Assembly (NCBI GenBank): GCA_020073015.1
Contig: JAIQFZ010000035.1
Coordinates: 1-41,620, forward strand
Origin: Terriglobia bacterium
GTDB lineage: Bacteria; Acidobacteriota; Terriglobia; Terriglobales; Acidobacteriaceae
Reading direction: 5' to 3'
DNA: 41,620 nt
In this document: positions 3,361-35,625 of the stretch, one piece after another
Layout of the letters: each line of letters opens with the position of its first letter
How positions within the stretch are numbered: the first letter of the stretch is position 1
The notes under the pieces: generated by a model
Database searches by the model: none
What the model was told of the DNA's origin: nothing
Seen by the model: the letters and a program-made list of their open reading frames with translations, nothing else
Made by a program: the position numbers and the translations under genes

Positions 3361-5066
3361 TGAAGCGAACTGTTCTGATGCTTTTTATGGCCATCACGTC
3401 GGGCATGTCGGCGCAGAGCGCGGCCCCGAAGCCGGTCTCCGATGTGATCTTCACGCACGGCAACGTGTACACGGGAGTGCTGGATTCTTCCTCTTTGGTC
3501 GCAGGCAAGCGGGCCGAGGCGATCGCCGTGCGGGGGGACCGGATTCTCGCGGTGGGAACGCGCGACGATGTCATGAAAACGAAAGGGCCGGACACTAAAG
3601 TCGTGGACCTGGACGGGCACTTCGTCATGCCCGGGTTCAACGATGCTCATCTGCATCTGGCCAGCGCGGGCTTCGAAAAGCTGAATGTTGACCTGGTCGG
3701 GGCGAAGACGCTCGATGAGTTTCGTGAGCGGTTGCGCGCCAAAGTCGAAGCTGCTGGTCCGGGGGAGTGGGTGGTGGGCAGCGGCTGGGATGAGACGCTC
3801 TGGCCGGTGAAGGTTCTACCCACGCGCTGGGATCTGGATGAAGTGAGCGGGAATCACCCGGTTTATCTCGGGCGCGTGGATGGGCATATCGGTGTTGCCA
3901 ACACACGGGCGCTGCAGTTGGCCAGCGTCACGGTGGCCAGCCGCGACCCGGAAGGTGGCAAGATCGATCGCGACGAAGCGGGAACACCCAATGGAATCTT
4001 GCGCGAAACCGCGCAGGGCGCGGTGCGGGCGGTCATCCCCAAGCCTGACCATGACAAGCGGAGGAAGGCAATCGAAGTGGCTCTGGCGGACCTGGCCAGT
4101 CACGGGATCACCTCCGCGCAGGACAATTCCGCATGGGAAGACTTCCAGGTCTACGAGGAATTGGAACACGCAGGCAAACTGACCGCGCGCATTTCCGAGT
4201 GGCTGCCGTTCGATGACTCCCTGGACGAACTCAACCGGAAGCGCAGTTCCCATCCCGCCTCCGACAATATGCTACACACGGGAATGCTGAAGGGCTTCAT
4301 GGACGGCTCGCTCGGGTCGAAAACGGCGGCCCTGCTCCAGCCCTACAGTGACGATCCGAAAAACTCCGGAATCCCGCAATATGAGCAGGCCAAGCTGAAC
4401 GCGATGACGAAAGAACGGCTGCTGGCGGGATATCAGATCGGCTTTCATGCGATCGGCGACAAGGGTGTCGAGATGGCGCTCGACGCATTTGCCGACGCGG
4501 AGAAGGCAGCCCGCGCGGCCGGCACCAAGGCGGCCGACGGTGGCACCGACTATCGGCTCCGCATCGAGCACTCCCAGGTCACCGTGCCACTGCAGATTCT
4601 TCGCTACCGGGAACTCAGGGTCATCGCGTCGATGCAGCCCAATCATCTGCTGACGGACATGAACTGGGCCGAATCGCGCTTGGGCCCGCAGCGGGCCGCG
4701 CATTCTTATGCCTGGGCCGAGTTCCTGCGGCGGGGGGCAGCCCTGGCCTTTGGAACCGATTACCCAGTTGAGCCGGTGACACCATTCCGGGGACTCTATT
4801 CCGCCCTCACACGGCAGAACGAGGCCGGGAAGAAAAGTTACTATCCTGGGCAAAAGCTGACGATCGAGGAGGCGATCGCGGCCTACACGGCCGGGTCGGC
4901 GTTCGCCGAGTTCTCCGAAAAAGAAAAAGGCAAACTCGCGCCGGGCATGCTGGCCGACTTCGTTGTCCTCGACCGCGATATCACATCGGTGCTTCCGCCG
5001 AAGGTCCTGGAAACGAAGGTTCTGCGTACAATCGTCGGCGGCAAGACGGTGTACGAAGCGAAGTAA
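3360..5066 (+). CDS. Exported amidohydrolase (YtcJ-like)
   Basis: A 568-residue protein of the amidohydrolase superfamily, YtcJ-like branch. The start is the ATG embedded in the TAATG overlap with the preceding stop codon. This gives a clean signal peptide (MKRTVLMLFMAITSGMSAQS) that would be lost if an upstream start were used. Visible motifs are the N-terminal beta-sandwich (VIFTHGNVYTG), the metal-binding PGFNDAHLHL, the mid-barrel GFHAIGDKG, RIEHSQV, ALAFGTDYPVEP and the C-terminal GKLAPGMLADFVVLDRD. Family members hydrolyse amides, formamides or cyclic amides; substrates are mostly unknown. Export plus coupling to an M20 peptidase suggests scavenging of amide- or peptide-type compounds, but this is inference. 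Confidence 0.88.
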   Translation: MKRTVLMLFMAITSGMSAQSAAPKPVSDVIFTHGNVYTGVLDSSSLVAGKRAEAIAVRGDRILAVGTRDDVMKTKGPDTKVVDLDGHFVMPGFNDAHLHLASAGFEKLNVDLVGAKTLDEFRERLRAKVEAAGPGEWVVGSGWDETLWPVKVLPTRWDLDEVSGNHPVYLGRVDGHIGVANTRALQLASVTVASRDPEGGKIDRDEAGTPNGILRETAQGAVRAVIPKPDHDKRRKAIEVALADLASHGITSAQDNSAWEDFQVYEELEHAGKLTARISEWLPFDDSLDELNRKRSSHPASDNMLHTGMLKGFMDGSLGSKTAALLQPYSDDPKNSGIPQYEQAKLNAMTKERLLAGYQIGFHAIGDKGVEMALDAFADAEKAARAAGTKAADGGTDYRLRIEHSQVTVPLQILRYRELRVIASMQPNHLLTDMNWAESRLGPQRAAHSYAWAEFLRRGAALAFGTDYPVEPVTPFRGLYSALTRQNEAGKKSYYPGQKLTIEEAIAAYTAGSAFAEFSEKEKGKLAPGMLADFVVLDRDITSVLPPKVLETKVLRTIVGGKTVYEAK

Positions 5067-5118
5067 TGCTCTGCTGGAAATGCGGCATGAGCCCGGATGG
5101 CACGAGATCAATACGCCC

Positions 5119-5430
5119 ATGACTGCGAAGGAGCGGGAACGAGCGTTCCTGATTGGCGCCCCGCTGGCGATTATTCCTGCGCTGTGCGTCCTTCCTGCGG
5201 GTGTGTTCCTGGTTATCATTCCCCGCGTGGCCCATGCGCAGATGATTGCGCTGCTCGTGTTGCCGGTTTGCGCGATCATGGGCAGCTTTGGGCTATGGAA
5301 GCTGGCGCTCGGCGCCGTGCAGAAACCGTGGGGAATCTTCAACGTGTTGAGTTTTGGAGCGCTGCTCGTATTGCTGGTTATCGCGAGCTACACGGGGCTG
5401 TTTCTGGCGCTGGTGGCGGCGAAGCTGTAA
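5119..5430 (+). CDS. Small membrane protein of unknown function
   Basis: A 103-residue hydrophobic protein with about three predicted membrane spans: residues around 9-32 (GAPLAIIPALCVLPAGVF...), 37-60 and 76-98. A short charged N-terminus (MTAKERER) precedes the first span. An in-frame ATG at 5080 would add 13 residues, and neither start has a strong ribosome-binding site. It lies about 50 bp after the amidohydrolase gene on the same strand, so it may be the last gene of that operon. I do not recognise the family and assign no function. Confidence 0.6.
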   Translation: MTAKERERAFLIGAPLAIIPALCVLPAGVFLVIIPRVAHAQMIALLVLPVCAIMGSFGLWKLALGAVQKPWGIFNVLSFGALLVLLVIASYTGLFLALVAAKL

Positions 5431-5510
5431 GGGGCGCGCAGGCCTTGGCAAGCCGCGGCTACCTGCGCCGTCTGGAGCCGACACGGTCATCGAATCTGTC
5501 CAACTCACGC

Positions 5511-7376
5511 CTACGGCGGAAATCCCATTCGCTTGACCAAGTCCTGGAAGCGTGGGTCCGAGCGGAGAGTGTCCATCCGCAGATCGGCCTTCAGGAAAAA
5601 CGACAGGTCGGCGGATCTCTCGTCATAAGCTTTTTCGAGGAATTCGAAGGCTTTGTGTTTATTACCCAGGCCGGCATAGATCGTGGCAATCATGTAGGGC
5701 GAAACATAGGTGGTCTTCGATTGTTCCAGAAAATCCCGCAGGACCTTTTCCGCCTCTGCTCTCTTGCCGGTACGCGCATAAGCGTATGCGAGGCCAGCCG
5801 TAGGATCACTGTCGTTGCCTGAGTATTCGACCGCTTTCTGATACTCGGGAATTGCCAGGAGTGTTTGTCCTGAACCCTGATACGCGACAGCAAGCAGGTT
5901 GCGGCCCAACCAATGACGGGGATTGGAAGGCACATAGTTCCGCATTGCTTCGAGCATCGGCTTGTAGTCGCGCAGTTGGTAGTAAACATGTCCAGAGTGG
6001 ACCTCCGACTCCAACCGCACGGGATCGAGTTGGCGGACTATTGCCCACTCCGCAAGTGCCTCGGCCCGCTGGCCTCTCCAGGCAAGGTAGTTAATGTGAT
6101 GTAAATGAACCCGAAGGGAGTTCGGGCTTAACTCAAAGGCTCGTTGAAAGTTTCGGTCGGCCGCCTGCACGTCCCAGTCGTACCGCCAGTTTGTATACGC
6201 AAGAACACCATAGGCCTCCCCAAGGTTCTCATCCAGTCGGAGAGCTTTGGCGACGAACTCTTTTGTTCGTTTTGCTGCCTCGCCTGGCGGCAGTCTGCGA
6301 GTGATCATGTAGTTCAGGTAGCAGTTCGCCAGGCCGGCGTATGCAAGAGCGAAATTGGGATCTTTCTGCAGCGCCTGTTCGTAGTAAGCCTGCTCTTTGG
6401 CCATTGCCTCGAAGGTGAAGCTCAGATTCTCAACCTGTCCTCGGAGGTAGTCCAAGTAGGCATCCGGATTGACTCGGCGTGCCCGGCTGAACTGTTGCTG
6501 TGCTTGCGGCGTCAAGTTGAGCCGGATTTGCTGGGTAACCGCGCGGGCGATATCGGCTTGCGTCAGCAAGATGTCACTCCGGTCGCGATCATAACTTTCT
6601 GCCCAAAGGTGTGCCTGGTTTTTGACCGCGATCAGCTGCGCAGTAATGCGCACCCGGCCTCCCTCCTGTTGCACGCTGCCTTCCAGAACGTAATCCACGC
6701 CCAGTTCACGCCCGATCTCGCTGATGTTCTTGGGCGAATTTTTGTACTTCATGACCGAAGTTGCGGCGATCACCCCGAGACGATGCGCATCCAGGCGTCC
6801 CAGCCAGTTGATCGTCTCGTGGGTCATGCCGTCGCTGAAGAATTCCTGACCGGGATCTCCACTGAGGTTCTCGAATGGCAGGACAGCGAGCATGACTTTT
6901 CTGTCGGGCGACACCGATTTGTGGGTCTGGCGCCACCACAGATAGGACGAAATCGCAATCACCAGAAGGGCTATGCAGCCGGCGGTCACCAGCCGCCATC
7001 GCGGTCGAATGGCCGCCGGTGCCCGGGTTTGGAGGTTCGCCGGAGTTGCCGTTTGCGCCGGAGCAATGAAACGGTAGCCGTGACGGGGAAGGGTTTCGAT
7101 GAAGCGCGGGTTGTCGGCGGAATCGCCCAGGGCCTCTCGCAGTCGCTTAACGGCCGCGTTCAGGCTGTGCTCGAAGTCAACGAATGTATCGGTTGACCAC
7201 AGCTTGCGCTGCAGTTCTTCCCGGGTCACAACTTCACCCGGGCACTCAAGCAACATCCCCAGCACTTGCAGGGGCTGTTCCTGGAGCTTGATCTTAACTC
7301 CGTTCTTGCGCAGTTCTCCGGCGCGCAAATCCACCTCGAAGGCGCCGAAACGTAAAGGGTTGGTGGCGAGAGACAT
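5511..7376 (-). CDS. Membrane-bound winged-helix/TPR regulator (CadC-like)
   Basis: A 621-residue protein with a clear layout. An OmpR/CadC-type winged-helix DNA-binding domain covers residues about 5-105, including FEHSLNAAVKRLREALGDSA and PRHGYRFIAP. A single membrane span lies at about 133-150. A FlgO/adenylate-cyclase-associated-like domain follows (about 160-300; VLPFENLSGDPGQEFFSDGM, DYVLEGSVQQEGGRVRIT). TPR repeats fill about 310-610 (FALAYAGLANCYLNY, GLAYAYARTGKRAEAEKV). This architecture is frequent in Acidobacteria and resembles one-component regulators that bind DNA inside the cell and sense outside it. No receiver domain is present. The target is unknown; the divergently transcribed small secreted protein is the obvious first candidate. 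Confidence 0.88.
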   Translation of the reverse strand: MSLATNPLRFGAFEVDLRAGELRKNGVKIKLQEQPLQVLGMLLECPGEVVTREELQRKLWSTDTFVDFEHSLNAAVKRLREALGDSADNPRFIETLPRHGYRFIAPAQTATPANLQTRAPAAIRPRWRLVTAGCIALLVIAISSYLWWRQTHKSVSPDRKVMLAVLPFENLSGDPGQEFFSDGMTHETINWLGRLDAHRLGVIAATSVMKYKNSPKNISEIGRELGVDYVLEGSVQQEGGRVRITAQLIAVKNQAHLWAESYDRDRSDILLTQADIARAVTQQIRLNLTPQAQQQFSRARRVNPDAYLDYLRGQVENLSFTFEAMAKEQAYYEQALQKDPNFALAYAGLANCYLNYMITRRLPPGEAAKRTKEFVAKALRLDENLGEAYGVLAYTNWRYDWDVQAADRNFQRAFELSPNSLRVHLHHINYLAWRGQRAEALAEWAIVRQLDPVRLESEVHSGHVYYQLRDYKPMLEAMRNYVPSNPRHWLGRNLLAVAYQGSGQTLLAIPEYQKAVEYSGNDSDPTAGLAYAYARTGKRAEAEKVLRDFLEQSKTTYVSPYMIATIYAGLGNKHKAFEFLEKAYDERSADLSFFLKADLRMDTLRSDPRFQDLVKRMGFPP

Positions 7377-7634
7377 AAGTCCAACCCGAACAAAGCTGTC
7401 GGATCTACTTCGAAGAGATTCTACTCCTCGATAGGGACCCGATGATGTACCGCGTCACCGGTCCTTAGAGTTGCTTCTCTGTCTGTCGGGTAGCCGGTGA
7501 CCCACGTTTCTCCTGCTCGTCACCTGCCCGGCATTGCAGAATTCGCCTCAGCAACGCATGTTGAACCCGTGCCGGCGCCTCGTGCGGCACGACGGAAAAG
7601 ATCATGAAGGTCAACGAGGTGGAATGGAGGTCTT

Positions 7635-8063
7635 ATGAAATCGCGGATCAGTATCGTGCTCACAATTGTGGTTGTGTTCATCCTGGGAATGTCTGTGGCA
7701 CTGCAAGCCCAGACCCAGATCACAACCCTCTTCAAGGTGGAGGTGCCCTTTGACTTCAGGGTCGGAAGTACGCATCTTGCGGCTGGACACTACACCGTGT
7801 TTCATGTCGGCAGTCAATGGATCTTGTTCCAAAGCAGCGACGGGAAGGCGACCGCCATGGTACCCGTGATCGTGTCGAACGCTCCGGCGGTTCAGGCAGC
7901 CTCCAAGCTGATCTTCAACAACTACGGAGATCGGCACTTCCTGGCACAGGTCTGGACCGAAGGCGACGGCCAGAAACACGATTGCTTTCAGTCTCGGACC
8001 GAACAGATGCTGCTGGCCAGCCAGCGCCGATCCGGGACGGCCACGGTGGTGGCGCAACGTTGA
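7635..8063 (+). CDS. Small secreted protein, acidobacterial type
   Basis: A 142-residue protein with a strong signal peptide (residues 1 to about 25, cleavage near ALQAQ) and a beta-rich mature part beginning VEVPFDFRVGSTHLAAG. I associate this 'VPFDF...AGxYTV' pattern with small secreted proteins found in several copies in acidobacterial genomes; no function is established. Two cysteines are absent as a pair (a single Cys lies near position 116), so a disulfide-stabilised fold is unlikely. A good ribosome-binding site, GGAGG, lies 4 nt upstream of the ATG. It faces away from the CadC-like regulator gene across a 258-bp intergenic region that could hold a shared control site. Confidence 0.78.
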   Translation: MKSRISIVLTIVVVFILGMSVALQAQTQITTLFKVEVPFDFRVGSTHLAAGHYTVFHVGSQWILFQSSDGKATAMVPVIVSNAPAVQAASKLIFNNYGDRHFLAQVWTEGDGQKHDCFQSRTEQMLLASQRRSGTATVVAQR

Positions 8064-8253
8064 GTGGAGCTCAGACGCGGCAACTTCCCCACCCTAATTA
8101 GCCCAGCCCCTAAAGGAGTGCTTGAACGAGGGGCGATTTTCGGCATCGCGGAAACGACGTCCTGATACGAATCTCCTGGGCGTCAACGCGGTGCCGTTTT
8201 TTTGCGTCTAATCGAGTAGAAGCCTGCCGCCTCAGTGCAAGCCATGGCGAAGG

Positions 8254-9884: not shown

Positions 9885-9954
9885 ACCGGCGAGACTGGCA
9901 CTGCGCCCCCGCTTCGGGGAAGATAATTGCAGGCTGATCTCGCCGGTTTTTTTT
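9885..9954 (+). terminator. Two-tier intrinsic terminator after the HtrA gene
   Basis: The arms ACCGGCGAGA (9885-9894) and TCTCGCCGGT (9938-9947) form a perfect 10-bp stem followed by eight T residues (9947-9954). The 43-nt loop holds a second GC-rich hairpin, CCCCGCTTCGGGG. It starts 12 nt after the protease stop codon and reads as a rho-independent terminator on the plus strand. Confidence 0.75.
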
Positions 9955-9968
9955 GCGCGATCGAAATC

Positions 9969-10541
9969 ATGCAATCCTGGTTATCAACTCGAAGCTGGAC
10001 CTGCGCGACCCTGTGCGGGTTGCTCTGCCTGGCTGTGCCCGCCAGCGCCGCTGCGCCGGACACTCCCACGCCGAATCCGGCGAGTTCGTTGCCCGCTCAT
10101 CCGGTGAGCGTGAAGCACTCCAAACACAAGCCTTCGACGGTGAAGCGTTCCTCCAGCAGCAAGCAAGCGCACGGCAAGACCAAAGGCAGGAGAAAACGCG
10201 GCCAGCAGGCGATTGATTCGCCGCGCGCCCGCCAGATCCAGGAAGCGCTGATTCGTGAGCACTACATGACCGGCGAACCCTCGGGGAAATGGGATGCCGC
10301 AACGCAGGACGCGCTGAAGCGGTATCAGGCTGCCCAGGGATGGCAAGCGAAGACGGTTCCCGATTCCCGGGCCTTGATCAAGCTGGGCCTGGGGCCCAGC
10401 AAGGACGGACTGCTGAACCCGGAAAGCGCGATGACCGCCGGGCCGCTGGCCAGCGACGTTAAGGCGGGGACGAAGCCGAAGACAGGCGATCCGGCGAATG
10501 GGTCGAGCAGCGCTCCTGACGAGAGCAAGCCTCAGCCGTAA
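9969..10541 (+). CDS. Exported peptidoglycan-binding-domain protein
   Basis: A 190-residue protein with a signal peptide (MQSWLSTRSWTCATLCGLLC..., cleavage near ASAAA). A basic Ser/Lys-rich linker (about 35-80) is followed by a PG-binding-1-like repeat (about 82-135; IQEALIREHYMTGEPSGKWD, TQDALKRYQAAQGW). This domain is usually found in cell-wall enzymes. Here no catalytic domain accompanies it, and the C-terminus is low-complexity. The frame opens further upstream to a TTG at 9927, but that codon lies inside the HtrA terminator, so the ATG at 9969 is preferred. Because the terminator sits between the two genes, this gene probably needs its own promoter or read-through. Confidence 0.8.
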   Translation: MQSWLSTRSWTCATLCGLLCLAVPASAAAPDTPTPNPASSLPAHPVSVKHSKHKPSTVKRSSSSKQAHGKTKGRRKRGQQAIDSPRARQIQEALIREHYMTGEPSGKWDAATQDALKRYQAAQGWQAKTVPDSRALIKLGLGPSKDGLLNPESAMTAGPLASDVKAGTKPKTGDPANGSSSAPDESKPQP

Positions 10542-10627
10542 ATTCCTCACGATTTAAGGTTGCGATCGATGCCCTCCGGCCAGAGGCTGAGCCCGACGGG
10601 CGAGTCGCGCCCGTCTCTCCACCCGCC

Positions 10628-11362
10628 TTATTCCATGACCGGTTTGGGGTTGTAGGGGATGGGCTGTCCGTTCACGATCGCACCCGGGTTGCCCTCGACT
10701 AACGCTTGCGCGTACTCGGCGCCTACGATCTGTTCGGCTAACTGGCGCGCTTGGGAAAGAATCGGAACGCGACGCTTTGCGTCGTGGGCGTCGGAGGCGA
10801 GGATGTGCACGGCGGCGTGGTCGAGCAGCCAGCGTGCGATGATCTCCGGCCGCTCGCCCCAAAACCCGGTGAGGGCGGAAGCTGTGACCTGCATCAAGCA
10901 ACCCTGTTCGGCCCACTCGAGGATGCGCTGGGGACTCTGTTGCAGGATCGGATTGCGCTCGGGGTGAGTCAGAATCGGAGTCAGCCCGCAGTCCCCGAGA
11001 CGGACAAAACAGTCGGTGAGCTGGATGGGCACGCTGTAATTGCTGAGTTCGACCAGCAAGTAGTTGGTTTCGCCGATGGTGTAGCTGTGCGGCCGCTCGA
11101 GCACCCGCTCCAGGTTCTCGTAGGAGAGGTGACAATCGCAGCCCAGACTCAGGCGCAGGGAAGGCCCGACCTTTTCCTGCAATTGCGCCAGAAGGCCGGT
11201 CAGATAGACGCGATCATAGGCATACCGATCATTGGCGTGGGGGGTGGCGACCGAGTGCGTAATACCATCGTGGGCCGCCATGCGGCACATTTCGACGGCC
11301 ACCTCCCAGGATTTGGGTCCGTCGTCAACTTCCGGAAGAAGATGGCAGTGAATGTCGATCAC
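10628..11362 (-). CDS. CpsB/YwqE-type PHP tyrosine phosphatase
   Basis: A 244-residue PHP-domain enzyme. Metal-binding motifs are visible at the N-terminus (DIHCHLLPEVDDG), then at VATPHAND, LGCDCHLSYENL, LTHPERN and ILASDAHDAKRR, in the order expected for CpsB/CapC/YwqE manganese-dependent phosphotyrosine phosphatases. These usually control BY-kinases that drive capsule or exopolysaccharide export. The start codon is GTG. No polysaccharide export genes or BY-kinase lie in this window, so the enzyme is an orphan here. Length matches the family (about 240-260 residues). It is transcribed convergently with the upstream peptidoglycan-binding gene and divergently from the small protein gene at 11.4 kb. 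Confidence 0.88.
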   Translation of the reverse strand: MIDIHCHLLPEVDDGPKSWEVAVEMCRMAAHDGITHSVATPHANDRYAYDRVYLTGLLAQLQEKVGPSLRLSLGCDCHLSYENLERVLERPHSYTIGETNYLLVELSNYSVPIQLTDCFVRLGDCGLTPILTHPERNPILQQSPQRILEWAEQGCLMQVTASALTGFWGERPEIIARWLLDHAAVHILASDAHDAKRRVPILSQARQLAEQIVGAEYAQALVEGNPGAIVNGQPIPYNPKPVME

Positions 11363-11403
11363 GGGTGTAGTTCGATTTTAGAATACATCTGGCGGGAGCG
11401 GTG

Positions 11404-11613
11404 ATGACGTCCTCCGAAGGGCCGAGATTCCTCGGCATGACCACGAATGAAAGGCTGGTTGCCGCCGGACTGTTGGAGCAGTGGGACGAAGCAGTGCGGG
11501 CACGCCATCGAGGGCAGAGGATTGCCTTGCTGGAACAGGTCGAGATCGCGGGGGCGGGCGCGATCGAAATTGCCGACGCTGTCCTGGCTAGTCCGGCGCG
11601 GTACGGTTTTTGA
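11404..11613 (+). CDS. Small conserved hypothetical protein
   Basis: A 69-residue soluble protein. The core, NERLVAAGLLEQWDEAV, followed by a basic segment and an ending in ADAVLASPARYGF, matches a pattern I recall from short uncharacterised bacterial proteins. There are no membrane segments or cysteines. A GTG directly before the ATG and an internal ATG at 11437 (MTTNERL) are alternative starts. It lies in the gap between the CpsB-type phosphatase and the beta-propeller gene. Function unknown. Confidence 0.6.
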   Translation: MTSSEGPRFLGMTTNERLVAAGLLEQWDEAVRARHRGQRIALLEQVEIAGAGAIEIADAVLASPARYGF

Positions 11614-29109: not shown

Positions 29110-29514
29110 TTACTGCGTTCGCACTCGGCCGGCAGCCTCGGCGAGGATTTCCTGTGGTACTTCCCGCACGGTTACCGCGAACTCGAACTTCGGGGTCTCC
29201 GATCCGCGTCCCCAGCGATTCACTTCCCAGTGGGCACGGATGAACTTTACTTCGGGCTTCCCCGCAAGATCGAGCAACAAGGGAACTTCCTCGCGATAGA
29301 ACTTCTGCGGGAACGCGACGATGGGCTTGGGATCCCACGTCGTGCCGTCTCCTGAACCTTGCACGCTGACGTCGAGCGATTCCTGCTCGACCACGGCGGT
29401 GATGTCCAGCGTCAGCAGAAAGATCCGGCCTTCGGTGCGGCTCAGATCGAGGGCCGGGCCGTCTCCTTTGGCAGTAGCCACGGTTTTCTCAGGAACGAGG
29501 AAGGCTTCGATCAT
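29110..29514 (-). CDS. Hypothetical beta-rich protein
   Basis: A 134-residue soluble protein without signal peptide or membrane span. It is mostly short beta strands: RIFLLTLDITAVVEQESLDV, SVQGSGDGTTWDPKPIVAF, VKFIRAHWEVNRWGRG and KFEFAVTVREVP. The layout suggests a small beta-sandwich of the sort used for binding, but I recognise no named family. It lies 45 bp upstream of aroA in the same direction and is probably the first gene of a hypothetical-aroA-methyltransferase transcript. Function unknown. Confidence 0.65.
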   Translation of the reverse strand: MIEAFLVPEKTVATAKGDGPALDLSRTEGRIFLLTLDITAVVEQESLDVSVQGSGDGTTWDPKPIVAFPQKFYREEVPLLLDLAGKPEVKFIRAHWEVNRWGRGSETPKFEFAVTVREVPQEILAEAAGRVRTQ

Positions 29515-29621
29515 GGGGCGATTCTAGCAGAGGCAGTCGGCAAGTGACGGTCCAAAGGACGCCGGTACTCTGCCGAACCTCGCATTGGCAAGGTAGAATT
29601 CCGGCGTAGGAAATTGTCTCC

Positions 29622-31007
29622 ATGAAAATAGTGCTTTCTTTGTGTTTGACGACTGCTCTTTTCTGGACGCCAGCAATCGCTCGACCACAACACTCCGACA
29701 CCCAAAGCAAGAAGACCGCGGGGGTTGCGCCGCCCATGCGGGAACTCGACTGGGATACCTATCTCGACAAAGTACAGGGCGCATGGATGGGAAAGATGAT
29801 CGGCGTCACTTTCGGCGCTCCCTGGGAATTCCAATACCAGAACACGCCGATCGGATTCGACATCACCGATTGGCCGCTTTCTCCAACGCGCATGAAGGAG
29901 TACCGGGCGCGCGCGACCAACAAGCCCGGCGACTGGACCCCGATCACGAGCGAGGCTGACAATCAGAACGTTCACATCGTCCACGACTTCATTCTCGATT
30001 CAGAGAAAGAGCACCCCAGCTTCGGCATTCCCGACAATGACGACATCTACATCAATCTGCTGTTTCTCTATTGCATGCGCCGCTACGGGATTGACGTTGA
30101 TCCGGTCACGGTCGCCCGCGAGTGGGACAAGAAGATTCGCCAGGTGTGGCACGCGAATGACGCCGGACTCGCCAACATCCGCAAAGGCATCCTGCCTCCC
30201 GATTCCGGCAACCCGCGCAATAACCTGCACGCCGATGACATCGACTTCCAGATTGAGTCCGACATTTTTGGCATGATCGCTCCCGGCATGCCGCAAGTCT
30301 CCAACCGCTACGGCGAACGCATGGGGCACATCATGAACTATGGAGACGGCGTCTACGGTGGCATGTTTATTTCCGCCATGTACACGCAGGCGTTCTTCGC
30401 CCGGGACATTCGAGAAGTTGTCGACAACGGCCTGAAGGCGATTCCGGCGGAAAGCCTCTACGCCCAGACGATCCGCGACGTCATCCAGTGGCATGACCAG
30501 TATCCCAACGACTGGCTCAAGACGTGGCATCTGGTACAGGCCGAGTGGGGCGAAGTGGATCACTGTCCCGATGGCTACAAACAGCCATTCAATATCGACG
30601 CAAAGCTGAATGGCGCCTATGTTGTGATGGGTTTGCTCTACGGCGATGGCGATTGGTATAAGACCATGAATTACGCGACTCGTGCCGGCCAGGACGCCGA
30701 CTGCAATCCCGCGAACGCTGCCGGCATTCTAGGTACGCTGATCGGTGCGCACGCGATTCCCGCGCAGTATAGCGAACCGGTTCACAACACCTATTGGAAC
30801 AAGACGCTCGCCGGCCTTCCCGATTCCTACGAGGTGGATGCGCTCGCGGGCGATACCGCGCAGATTGGCCTCAAAATCCTGCTCGCGAACGGGGGAGAGG
30901 TCGTATCCAGATCCGGCAAGATGGTGCTGCGAATTCCTCAGCAGGACCCGGTCCCGCCCTCCGACCTGGAGCAGGTGAAGTGGGACGGCGACAAACCCGT
31001 CTTTTGA
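29622..31007 (+). CDS. Exported ADP-ribosylglycohydrolase-family protein
   Basis: A 461-residue protein with a signal peptide (MKIVLSLCLTTALFWTPAIA), unusual because most family members are cytosolic. The ARH/DraG-like helical domain begins at about residue 45 (KVQGAWMGKMIGVTFGAPWE). Magnesium-site motifs are divergent. The usual N-terminal TDDT appears as ADNQ (near 112-115). The C-terminal GxDxDT becomes GQDADCNPANAAGILGTLIG (about 355-375), keeping the two aspartates. DNDDIYINLLFLY matches a motif seen in exported relatives. The enzyme could cleave an ADP-ribose or another N-glycosidic bond outside the cytoplasm, but substrate and activity are inferred only from fold. It is monocistronic and convergent with the alpha/beta hydrolase gene. 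Confidence 0.85.
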   Translation: MKIVLSLCLTTALFWTPAIARPQHSDTQSKKTAGVAPPMRELDWDTYLDKVQGAWMGKMIGVTFGAPWEFQYQNTPIGFDITDWPLSPTRMKEYRARATNKPGDWTPITSEADNQNVHIVHDFILDSEKEHPSFGIPDNDDIYINLLFLYCMRRYGIDVDPVTVAREWDKKIRQVWHANDAGLANIRKGILPPDSGNPRNNLHADDIDFQIESDIFGMIAPGMPQVSNRYGERMGHIMNYGDGVYGGMFISAMYTQAFFARDIREVVDNGLKAIPAESLYAQTIRDVIQWHDQYPNDWLKTWHLVQAEWGEVDHCPDGYKQPFNIDAKLNGAYVVMGLLYGDGDWYKTMNYATRAGQDADCNPANAAGILGTLIGAHAIPAQYSEPVHNTYWNKTLAGLPDSYEVDALAGDTAQIGLKILLANGGEVVSRSGKMVLRIPQQDPVPPSDLEQVKWDGDKPVF

Positions 31008-31091
31008 CTTACCGGGGTCTCACACAAGGGGAATACTGACCCCGACTCGGCCGGCGTAACCAGCCACGAACCGGCCCCGGCTCGCAACCGG

Positions 31092-31892
31092 CTACGTCAA
31101 CGGCACGTCATCCAAAAACTGGCGCAGGGTTTTTCCGACCAGTTCCGGCTGCTCCCAGGGCGCGTAGTGGCCTGCCTTCGGGATGACTTTCAGTTGGCTG
31201 CCCGCGATGCTCTGGCGCATCAGCTCGCCGTCGGCAACCGTGGACAGTATGTCTTCTTCGCCAATTAGGATCAGCGTGCGGACGTTGATCGTCTTCAGGT
31301 CGGCCACTGAATCGGGGCGCTCTGCCATGCCGCGCTGGACCAGGCTGATATCTTTCGGCGACATTTTCCGCATCATGCGGCGGGCGCCCTCGACCACATC
31401 GGGACGCATGCCGACCGTGGTCCGGCCCATCAGTTTCGGAATCATTGTCTCGAGGAACTGCGCGGTTCCTTGCTCCAGAACGTCCGCGGCTGCCTTTAAC
31501 CGGTTCGATCTGGCTTCGGGCGTGTCGGGCTGAGGCCGCGTATCGCAGAGCACCAGCGCACTGACGCGCTCGCGAAAACGGCGCCAGAACTCAAACGAGA
31601 TGTATCCGCCGATCGAACAGACGATGAACGCAGACTTCCCGACTCCTGCCGCGTCCAGCACCCGCGCAACGTCCTCGGCATGCTTCTCCATGAGCGCGGG
31701 CCCTTCGCCGATTTCCGAGTCGCCGTGGCCGCGCAGGTCGGGGGTGATCAGCCGATAACGCGAATTCAGTGCTGGCGCGATTGGGTTCCAGAACTCGTGA
31801 TGACAAGGAAAGGGATGAAGCAGAATAACCGGAGGGCCGCTCCCCTGGATTTCATAGACGATCTCGGCGTCGTCGCTGCGCAGGCGGTCCAT
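31092..31892 (-). CDS. Alpha/beta hydrolase
   Basis: A 266-residue alpha/beta-hydrolase-fold enzyme. The oxyanion strand is PPVILLHPFPCHHEFW. The nucleophile elbow is VCSIGGYIS, with Ser at the expected place but Cys where the first Gly of GxSxG usually sits. Asp is probably in LILIGEEDILS, and the catalytic His is in PKAGHYAPWEQPE. Length and layout resemble 3-oxoadipate enol-lactonase/haloperoxidase-like esterases, but the substrate is unknown. No aromatic-degradation genes are nearby. It is separated from the PspC gene by a palindromic repeat. Confidence 0.86.
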   Translation of the reverse strand: MDRLRSDDAEIVYEIQGSGPPVILLHPFPCHHEFWNPIAPALNSRYRLITPDLRGHGDSEIGEGPALMEKHAEDVARVLDAAGVGKSAFIVCSIGGYISFEFWRRFRERVSALVLCDTRPQPDTPEARSNRLKAAADVLEQGTAQFLETMIPKLMGRTTVGMRPDVVEGARRMMRKMSPKDISLVQRGMAERPDSVADLKTINVRTLILIGEEDILSTVADGELMRQSIAGSQLKVIPKAGHYAPWEQPELVGKTLRQFLDDVPLT

Positions 31893-34290: not shown

Positions 34291-35157
34291 CTAGCCGCGC
34301 GAGTGTGCGTGCTCGGCATCGGCATCGGCCACGGCCGCACTGCGTCGCCTTTGCAGATTCATGCGATAAAGATGATGCAGGGGCCCAATGCCGTGTCCCA
34401 ACGGCTGGGCATTCGTAATCGCGGCGGCTACATAGGCCTTGGCGAGAAGAACCCCTTCCGGTAACCCCCGCCCCTGCGCCAGATGACAAGCCAGCGCCGT
34501 CGCAAAGGCACATCCGGTACCGTGGGTGGAATTCGATCGCTGGCGGTCCGCCTTGAAAACTTCCTGCTCTGTGCCCCGGCTGGTACTGAAACTCAAGAGG
34601 TCGATTGCCTTGTCGAGGTGGCCACCCGTCACGACGACGTTGGTGGCTCCTAACGCGTGCAGGCGAGCCGCCGCCTCGCGCATCTCGTCCAGGTTCGTCA
34701 CCGCCACACCGGTTAACACGCTTGCCTCGTCCAGATTGGGCGTCACCACCTCGGCCAGCGGAACCAACTTTTCGATCATCAGCCTGGTTCCGGCGGCATC
34801 CAGCAGGTCGATCCCTGAACTGGATTTCAGGATGGGGTCCAGCACGACGTGGGGCAGCTTTGACTCCTCCAGGAAACCGGCAACCGCCTTAACCACCTGC
34901 TCATTGCCGAGCATGCCGAGATGGACCGCTTCAATTTCAAGGTCGGACGCCAGTTCCTGCAGGGTGTCGCGGATGATCTTCGGATCCACTCCCTGGACCC
35001 GCCGAACCCCTTGGGTGGACTGAACCGTCAAGGCGGTGATGCAGCAGACCCCGTAGCAATCGTGAGCGGCGATCGTTTTGATGTCGGCGGTAATTCCCGC
35101 CCCCGAGGACGGGTCAAACCCCGCTACCGTCAATACCACAGGAGGTCTTACAACCAT
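34291..35157 (-). CDS. thiD: Hydroxymethylpyrimidine/phosphomethylpyrimidine kinase
   Basis: A 288-residue ribokinase-fold enzyme of thiamine biosynthesis and salvage that phosphorylates HMP and HMP-phosphate. Signatures are VLTVAGFDPSSGAGITADIK at the N-terminus, ITALTVQSTQGV, HVVLDPILKSSSG and STHGTGCAFATALACHLAQG (the anion hole and catalytic Asp/Cys region of the family). The ATG at 35157 is preferred over the open frame to 35238 because the family begins here and a GAGTGGG ribosome-binding site precedes it. I looked for a TPP riboswitch upstream and did not find the CUGAGA core. No other thi genes are nearby. Confidence 0.92.
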   Translation of the reverse strand: MVVRPPVVLTVAGFDPSSGAGITADIKTIAAHDCYGVCCITALTVQSTQGVRRVQGVDPKIIRDTLQELASDLEIEAVHLGMLGNEQVVKAVAGFLEESKLPHVVLDPILKSSSGIDLLDAAGTRLMIEKLVPLAEVVTPNLDEASVLTGVAVTNLDEMREAAARLHALGATNVVVTGGHLDKAIDLLSFSTSRGTEQEVFKADRQRSNSTHGTGCAFATALACHLAQGRGLPEGVLLAKAYVAAAITNAQPLGHGIGPLHHLYRMNLQRRRSAAVADADAEHAHSRG

Positions 35158-35625
35158 GCTGCCCACTCTAAACCCAAACACCTGAGCTGGGAACTCCACT
35201 TCCGGCTCATCCCGCTCCCAGAGATCAGGAATCCCCACCCGTTATTCCGTTGGTTAAGGATGGAACTGCCAAGCTGTGTACCATCATACAAACATTCGTA
35301 GCTCTAACTGTATGATTACATTGTTCTTATCTTATTATTCTCGTAAGGCTAACATTCGAAAACAGGTTACACCATCTTGCTTGAACCAGCAGTGCTTGTG
35401 TTTACTATTTTGTAATCGACAGCCTCTTCATTGTTTCAACAACATAGCTCACAAATCCCATAGTTTTCATTGTGCTAAGTCATTGATTAATTACTAGTTA
35501 GTTAATTCGGCACCCGATTTTAGAGGTTGACATACCCCCTCCGCCCCGCTAGCATTCTTAGATCGTTTGACCAAAGGAGCATGCGACCCTAGAGAACGAC
35601 GACTTTCAAATAGCGAGGTCATTGA
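35158..35625. other. AT-rich gene-free island between thiD and rlpA
   Basis: About 470 bp without a convincing gene. From about 35240 to 35520 the base composition is clearly more AT-rich than anywhere else in the window, with stop codons in most frames. One 73-codon frame (35276-35497) starts with GTG, has no ribosome-binding site and gives a Cys/His/Asn-rich product without features, so I do not call it. A near-palindrome around ACTAGT lies at 35487-35505. The right end holds a strong promoter for rlpA. Confidence 0.6.
35527..35555 (+). promoter_or_regulatory. Sigma70-like promoter of rlpA
   Basis: A perfect -35 hexamer TTGACA (35527-35532), a 17-nt spacer and a -10-like TAGCAT (35550-35555, four of six consensus bases). 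Transcription would start near 35562, giving a leader of about 64 nt. A GAGGT ribosome-binding site lies 7 nt before the rlpA ATG. Confidence 0.65.

Follow-up and report, generated by a model that had tools for sequence, protein, structure and literature searches.

A predicted exported ADP-ribosylglycohydrolase-like protein of Acidobacteriota with intact metal carboxylates and replaced ADP-contact motifs

The window, a 41,620-nucleotide stretch of DNA from a Terriglobia bacterium (Acidobacteriota), carries on its forward strand an ATG-initiated open reading frame (29622-31007) for a 461-residue product related to ADP-ribosylglycohydrolases (ADPRGH). The gene is surrounded by genes for an EPSP synthase, a methyltransferase, an alpha/beta hydrolase and a PspC protein, among others. 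An operon was considered and rejected because the immediate neighbours lie on the other strand, and the region 29300-31150 contains no promoter-like site and no + strand terminator-like site. Ten window neighbours were scanned for the partners of a ribose-utilization (rus)-type locus, and no ribokinase, permease or nucleoside hydrolase was found among them. A PfkB-like match at 34291-35238 is a phosphomethylpyrimidine kinase. The gene and its predicted export signal are placed as follows.

29622..31007, + strand: predicted exported ADP-ribosylglycohydrolase-like gene; ATG start, 461 codons plus stop
29622..29681, + strand: predicted signal peptide, residues 1-20, putative cleavage between AIA and RP (from the sequence, the hydrophobic-segment tally and the third-position pattern of codons 1-38)

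PF03747 (ADP_ribosyl_GH) is the sole Pfam family in the protein (E 3.5e-37, residues 53-381). Its score of 129.1 bits, against a curated cut-off of 26.2, bears out the fold signatures reported in a first-pass annotation of this DNA. An NCBIfam scan returned a weak tail match alone, far under its cut-off, and a search of solved-structure sequences with the window protein alone as query gave one chance match. The AF2 model, built with eight close rows as input, has a pLDDT of 37 and its predicted helices are unreliable. The gene is the single PF03747 gene found in its own genome (5.5 Mb assembly). Matches to the window protein occur in 43 of 396 phylum genomes and in 6 of 150 family genomes, and PF03747 overall in 116 of the 396. 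Seven close loci, all from Acidobacteriota metagenome-assembled genomes, encode proteins 68-92% identical to the window protein, while a search of viral contigs found no relatives. No characterized close cytosolic relative, which the first-pass annotation had named as grounds for giving up its proposal, was found, and the literature, covered by titles and abstract openings and in part for subscription journals, yielded no functional study of exported PF03747 members.

The N-terminus reads MKIVLSLCLTTALFWTPAIA followed by RP, with a basic residue, a hydrophobic run and an AIA-RP site, in agreement with the signal peptide proposed earlier. We tallied hydrophobic segments that end well upstream of domain helix 1, in place of an earlier signal-peptide heuristic that responded to helix 1 in cytosolic proteins as well. 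Such a segment is present in 31 of 35 exported-set rows versus 0 of 24 cytosolic rows, with L170 uncounted for want of an anchor, L169 unscored and the anchor of L029 inside its GH84 part. The four exceptions are three GH84 fusions, whose signal-like segment stands before the GH84 domain, and L038, which is probably not exported. Lipobox-like cysteines are seen in several relatives.

Translation likely starts at 29622, judging from comparison with the close loci. A hydrophobic stretch precedes the conserved Met39 in all eight close sequences, which makes a start downstream of the signal peptide unlikely; Met39 itself is invariant in the eight. Within codons 1-38, differences at positions 1/2/3 number 5/10/15 against L001, 10/11/16 against L002 and 12/12/22 against L003, and the corresponding nonsynonymous and synonymous changes are 13 v 8, 17 v 5 and 16 v 12; signal peptides usually tolerate an excess of nonsynonymous change. 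Base identity to the window gene over these codons is 74% (L001), 66% (L002) and 57% (L003), and upstream of the ATG 47/80, 49/80 and 46/80 aligned bases are identical, so that the drop in identity upstream is clear against L001, slight against L002 and absent against L003. On the downstream start that the first-pass annotation had set as a check on export, the third-position excess and the upstream hydrophobic stretch thus favor 29622 and leave the shorter product as an unlikely possibility.

The metal site was then located from the following features.

29826..29828, + strand: E69, equivalent of ARH3 Glu41; E in 36/36 exported-side rows
29874..29981, + strand: additional segment (residues 85-120) lying between E69 and D140, about where ARH3 has its Glu41-flap; contains ADNQ; a gap in 16 wider relatives, present in 8 close sequences
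30036..30047, + strand: N139-D140-D141-I142, TDDT equivalent by row and profile alignments
30687..30710, + strand: GQDADCNP, residues 356-363, GGDTDT equivalent by alignment; D358 and D360 conserved, with C361 where ARH3 has Thr317

The first-pass annotation had described altered metal-site motifs, with ADNQ standing for the N-terminal TDDT and GQDADCNP as the C-terminal motif. The latter assignment was confirmed at residues 356-363, but ADNQ (residues 112-115) had to be abandoned as a metal motif: it is kept in two of seven close orthologues (L002, L003), appears as AENQ, ADDQ, SDNQ or further changed in the other five, and falls in columns where, in a 21-row alignment, the 16 wider relatives have gaps. 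The motif aligned with TDDT is N139-D140-D141-I142, in the context PDNDDIYIN, and its D140 and D141 are invariant in 21/21 rows. Profile alignments to the solved MJ1187 and DraG place D140-D141 on their TDDT, and those to 6dre and ARH3 give the same register with scores too weak to count alone. As a whole, the 21-row profile matches the solved MJ1187 (9.9e-13), the Tri1-type 6dre, DraG and ARH3; the match is significant for all four at the C-terminal GQDADC, while in the N-terminal part it is significant for MJ1187, moderate for DraG and weak for 6dre and ARH3.

We further compared 36 exported-side rows (L013 included, L038 counted though it has no upstream hydrophobic segment, L169 in no count owing to a frame break) with 22 cytosolic rows (L116 and L125 left out). 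E69, D140, D141, D358 and D360 are each present in 36/36 exported-side rows, and the same five columns in the cytosolic rows hold E in 20/22 and D in 21/22, 17/22, 16/22 and 20/22, respectively. The metal carboxylates are hence preserved on the exported side at least as well as in this 22-row cytosolic sample. Ten further distant rows have E69 in nine (one gap), D140-D141 in nine (one masked) and D358 with D360 in nine, L082 being the exception. Because these carboxylates are intact, the description of an altered metal site is largely wrong, and canonical ligands do lie elsewhere in the chain, the outcome that had been named as contradicting it. What stands of it is the replacement of the threonine ligands (ARH3 T76 and T317) by N139 and C361, the Thr317 position being C in 29 of 36 exported-side rows. 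The spacing from E69 to D140 is 70 residues versus 35 by ARH3 numbering, where the Glu41-flap comprises residues 41-75 (accessible text of PMC8319183), so that the close orthologues have a longer lid region. The same text reports that ARH3 activity is severely cut by D34G, E41A, T76R, D77N and D78N.

Three other positions differ from the cytosolic members.

29805..29807, + strand: V62, position of the GD-motif active-site Asp (ARH3 D34, assigned from spacing); not D in 36 exported-side rows
30228..30263, + strand: HADDIDFQIESD, residues 203-214, replacing the G(N/C)G..MR loop of cytosolic members; Arg in 0/36 exported-side versus 22/22 cytosolic rows
30333..30362, + strand: MNYGDGVYGG, residues 238-247, replacing the TH motif (row alignments)

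By these alignments, the exported side has lost ADP-contact motifs while keeping the metal carboxylates. The column of the GD Asp, whose equivalence to ARH3 D34 we infer from a seven-residue spacing to Glu41, holds V in 18, C in 13, N in four and G in one of the 36 exported-side rows, and D in all 22 cytosolic rows; the window protein, with V62, does not have the Asp expected of a functional ADP-ribosylhydrolase. Nor does it have the expected loop: DIDFQIE stands in place of G(N/C)G..MR, and the Arg column, Arg in 22/22 cytosolic rows, is never Arg on the exported side (E in 29 rows). An hhalign profile-profile alignment likewise puts the M-R pair on I211-E212, and the solved DraG, 2cwc and Lmo0067 have the GNG..MR form. 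The His of TH, present in 22/22 cytosolic rows, is found in one of 36 exported-side rows, 30 of which have N. The loop presumably lies on the adenosine side, and ARH3 G150 is presumably within the GNG motif. In ARH3, activity drops severely on changes at F143, S148 or G150, which coordinate adenosine, but not on Tyr149 to Leu (accessible text of PMC8319183). The earlier suggestion that activity may have shifted to another glycosidic bond gains support from the loss of GD Asp, GNG..MR and TH and from the sugar contexts of some relatives, although the motif it named lends it none.

A quick tree of 58 rows, a phylogeny of the kind first proposed as a check, places 34 exported-side rows and 24 cytosolic rows on opposite sides of a branch with an SH-aLRT of 100; long branches meet at this split, and L038 is basal and labeled exported. 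The two sides were gathered differently, the exported one by similarity to the window protein and the cytosolic one by best PF03747 scores rather than at random. The near copies L005, L015 and L036, the window itself (L008, L009) and six cytosolic loci for which no suitable open reading frame was picked (L118, L126, L136, L139, L142 and L143) were left out.

We searched for partner genes at 47 context loci (L001-L007, L045-L084). L003 and L065 carry the same sequence, which leaves 46 distinct loci; L049/L071, L060/L076/L077 and L083/L084 form groups of close relatives, and six loci span less than 9 kb. The search was seeded with single sequences and may miss distant partners. A PF07168/PF06800-type permease lies near the gene in three of the 47 (L006, L045 and L047), a nucleoside hydrolase in one (L006) and PfkB in one (L045). 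L006 (71% identical) has the order ADPRGH, permease, nucleoside hydrolase, with a signal-like N-terminus, and resembles a rus-type locus in part; L045 combines the gene with PfkB and permease, and L047 with permease and a sugar-binding protein. At the genome scale, a nucleoside hydrolase is encoded in 25 of 34 ADPRGH-bearing genomes, never less than 30 kb from a listed place of the gene, and PF07168 in 44 of 396 genomes, about 3 kb or less from the gene in two (G242, G291). In L066 (G417), an 82% orthologue at ~4751-8111 follows, by eye, an apparent GntR regulator and a SelA-like PLP enzyme on one strand.

The window's own genome carries, on contig C61 (~32796-80783; L160-L162), seven nucleoside hydrolase genes, a permease and a PfkB kinase within ~48 kb, which we read as a large nucleoside or ribose scavenging island. 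With this gene set, a ribose-scavenging pathway is available for the product, unlinked to the window. The hydrolases are of the inosine-uridine type, several with signal-like N-termini, and the permease is of the ureide/sugar type. Nucleoside hydrolase copies are also clustered in G417 contig C18 and G465 contig C39.

Other relatives keep different company. In L001, which carries the 92% orthologue, a TonB-receptor-like outer-membrane protein, the gene, a GDSL esterase and a GH84 NAGidase (1.4e-96) follow one another on one strand, and in L027, L029 and L030 a GH84 NAGidase is fused N-terminally to the PF03747 domain. A GH2 protein lies opposite the L003 gene and a ROK kinase opposite the L004 gene, both on the other strand, and the C-terminus of L010 gives a sub-threshold carbohydrate-esterase match. 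GH84 is encoded in 11 of 34 ADPRGH-bearing genomes: as a fusion in three, on another contig in five, the window's own genome among them, and on the same contig but at a distance of over 1 Mb in three. Full genes for these three fusions, which have a signal-like N-terminus, are found in L056, L057 and L063. On contig C69 of the own genome (G000; 147927-154056), a TonB-receptor-like and GH84 locus is arranged, by eye, like L001:2404-10690 without the ADPRGH and GDSL genes, which suggests that the ADPRGH and GDSL esterase pair moves in and out of the receptor-GH84 locus.

Outside Acidobacteriota, a translated search of plasmid records matched 31, and contexts cover seven of them, four from Bacteroidota. 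In three of these four, those of highest identity, ribokinase and a GRP sugar permease adjoin the gene: Parabacteroides (39% identical) has rbsK-ADPRGH-nucleoside hydrolase-GRP transporter, Spirosoma (43%) rbsK-ADPRGH-GRP, and Flammeovirga (30%) rbsK-GRP-ADPRGH with SusD and SusC adjoining on the other strand. These three records (L168-L170) resemble a rus-type locus in part. A Pfam scan bears out four genes in Parabacteroides and two in Flammeovirga, and assigns the Flammeovirga permease to the same family as that of L006. The Persicobacter homologue (24% identical) apparently lacks a signal peptide, and neither a permease nor a ribokinase was matched within ~9 kb of it (18.8 kb region); a weak nucleoside-hydrolase match lies 6 kb downstream, after two long open reading frames resembling SusC and SusD by eye. 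Sugar ABC transporter genes adjoin the homologue in two Alphaproteobacteria and one Actinomycete. In the alphaproteobacterial L171 and L173, two tandem ADPRGH-family genes adjoin genes for a LacI regulator and a sugar ABC transporter. The Spirosoma plasmid homologue (L169, ~9900-11500) is unannotated, and its reading frame is interrupted near the GxDxDC motif, through either a real change or a sequencing error.

Since the metal centre is kept, ADP-recognizing features are lost, the protein carries an export signal and some relatives lie near sugar-scavenging genes, with ribose the clearest, the best reading, at somewhat less than an even chance, is that the window protein may be an exported DraG-fold binuclear-metal glycoside hydrolase that leaves the ADP half unrecognized and most likely cleaves an exogenous ribosidic bond. 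It would act in the periplasm or at the cell surface, where the binuclear metal centre would hydrolyze a ribosidic bond in a free riboside, a nucleoside-like compound or a glycan-borne ribose; a GRP/ureide-type permease would then take up the released sugar, and a ribokinase would phosphorylate it. We infer both catalysis and the bond cleaved, as well as that the solitary window gene does the same job as its operon-borne relatives. The sugar-catabolic contexts of some relatives answer in outline the earlier objection that such an enzyme has no obvious substrate outside the cytoplasm: exogenous ribosides or glycans could serve. Against the riboside reading, a permease lies near the gene in just 3/47 loci and none is among the ten neighbours scanned around the window gene, Persicobacter has no permease or ribokinase match within ~9 kb, and other orthologues are near GH84, GH2 or ROK genes that are not obviously ribose-related.

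This last group sustains the main rival, in which the exported enzymes work alongside glycan hydrolases and cut a linkage within glycans, whether GlcNAc-containing or not, with the ribose contexts as a side branch. The three N-terminal GH84 fusions, the position of the 92% orthologue between a TonB-receptor-like protein and the GDSL esterase and GH84 genes, the GH2 and ROK genes facing L003 and L004 and the esterase match in L010 all speak for it, but GH84 is present in just 11 of 34 ADPRGH genomes and, fusions apart, on another contig or over 1 Mb off, and we consider this rival rather doubtful. Family membership and intact metal carboxylates would also suit a true extracellular ADP-ribosyl hydrolase acting on proteins, poly(ADP-ribose), NAD or related compounds; with the GD Asp, MR Arg and TH His in 0, 0 and 1 of 36 exported-side rows against 22/22 cytosolic rows, this is unlikely.

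The lost D34 equivalent could instead mean lost activity. This position, on which ARH3 activity depends, holds Val, Cys, Asn or Gly in all 36 rows, as for a non-catalytic protein whose fold and metal site hold a sugar. That Acidobacteriota and a Bacteroidota row alike conserve all five carboxylates, together with many clade-specific residues, would be unusual for a dead site, and we hold a binding protein to be quite improbable. Least credible is a cytosolic enzyme translated from Met39 with an illusory signal peptide: Met39 is invariant, and comparison with L003 shows no higher identity in codons 1-38 than in the upstream bases (57% and 46/80), yet the third-position excess, the contrast with L001 (74% against 47/80), the upstream segment in 31/35 rows and the lipobox-like cysteines leave it hardly any room.

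With reserve, we raise the possibility that the exported proteins form an undescribed metal-dependent glycoside hydrolase family that has abandoned ADP-ribose, with the DraG centre turned to extracytoplasmic ribosides or amino-sugar glycans in Acidobacteriota and Bacteroidota and sometimes joined to GH84 as a second catalytic domain. Genome annotation labels exported-clade proteins ADP-ribosylglycohydrolases, and the accessible text of PMC7251102 interprets enrichment of the family as ADP-ribose removal from proteins. Should the exported clade serve sugar scavenging and no longer recognize ADP, labels of this kind can mislead on biology; a protein-editing fold would then be a source of new glycosidases, whose substrates might be guessed from rus-like and GH84-linked loci.

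Among known systems, the window protein shares with the DraG/ARH proteins (human ARH3, DraG, the Tri1-type 6dre, MJ1187) PF03747 and the aligned Glu, Asp-Asp pair and C-terminal D.D ligands. It differs in its predicted export, in the replaced GD Asp, GNG..MR and TH, in N139 and C361 at the threonine ligands and, from ARH3, in the doubled distance between Glu and the Asp pair. E. coli YegU (yegTUV) is likewise homologous to ADP-ribosylglycohydrolases, and its gene neighbours encode a sugar kinase and a nucleoside-type transporter, but the protein is cytosolic. The ribose-utilization locus of B. thetaiotaomicron near BT2804 is named rus, and Glowacki et al. 2020 reportedly found ADP-ribosylglycohydrolases in other rus loci. 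Near BT2804 lie a ribokinase, a TonB receptor, SusD, a nucleoside hydrolase and a DMT permease, and the gene list in the accessible text includes no ADP-ribosylglycohydrolase (PMC10434189). Whereas the window gene is solitary, three of its Bacteroidota relatives share with rus loci an operon with ribokinase and a GRP-type permease, in one case also with a nucleoside hydrolase.
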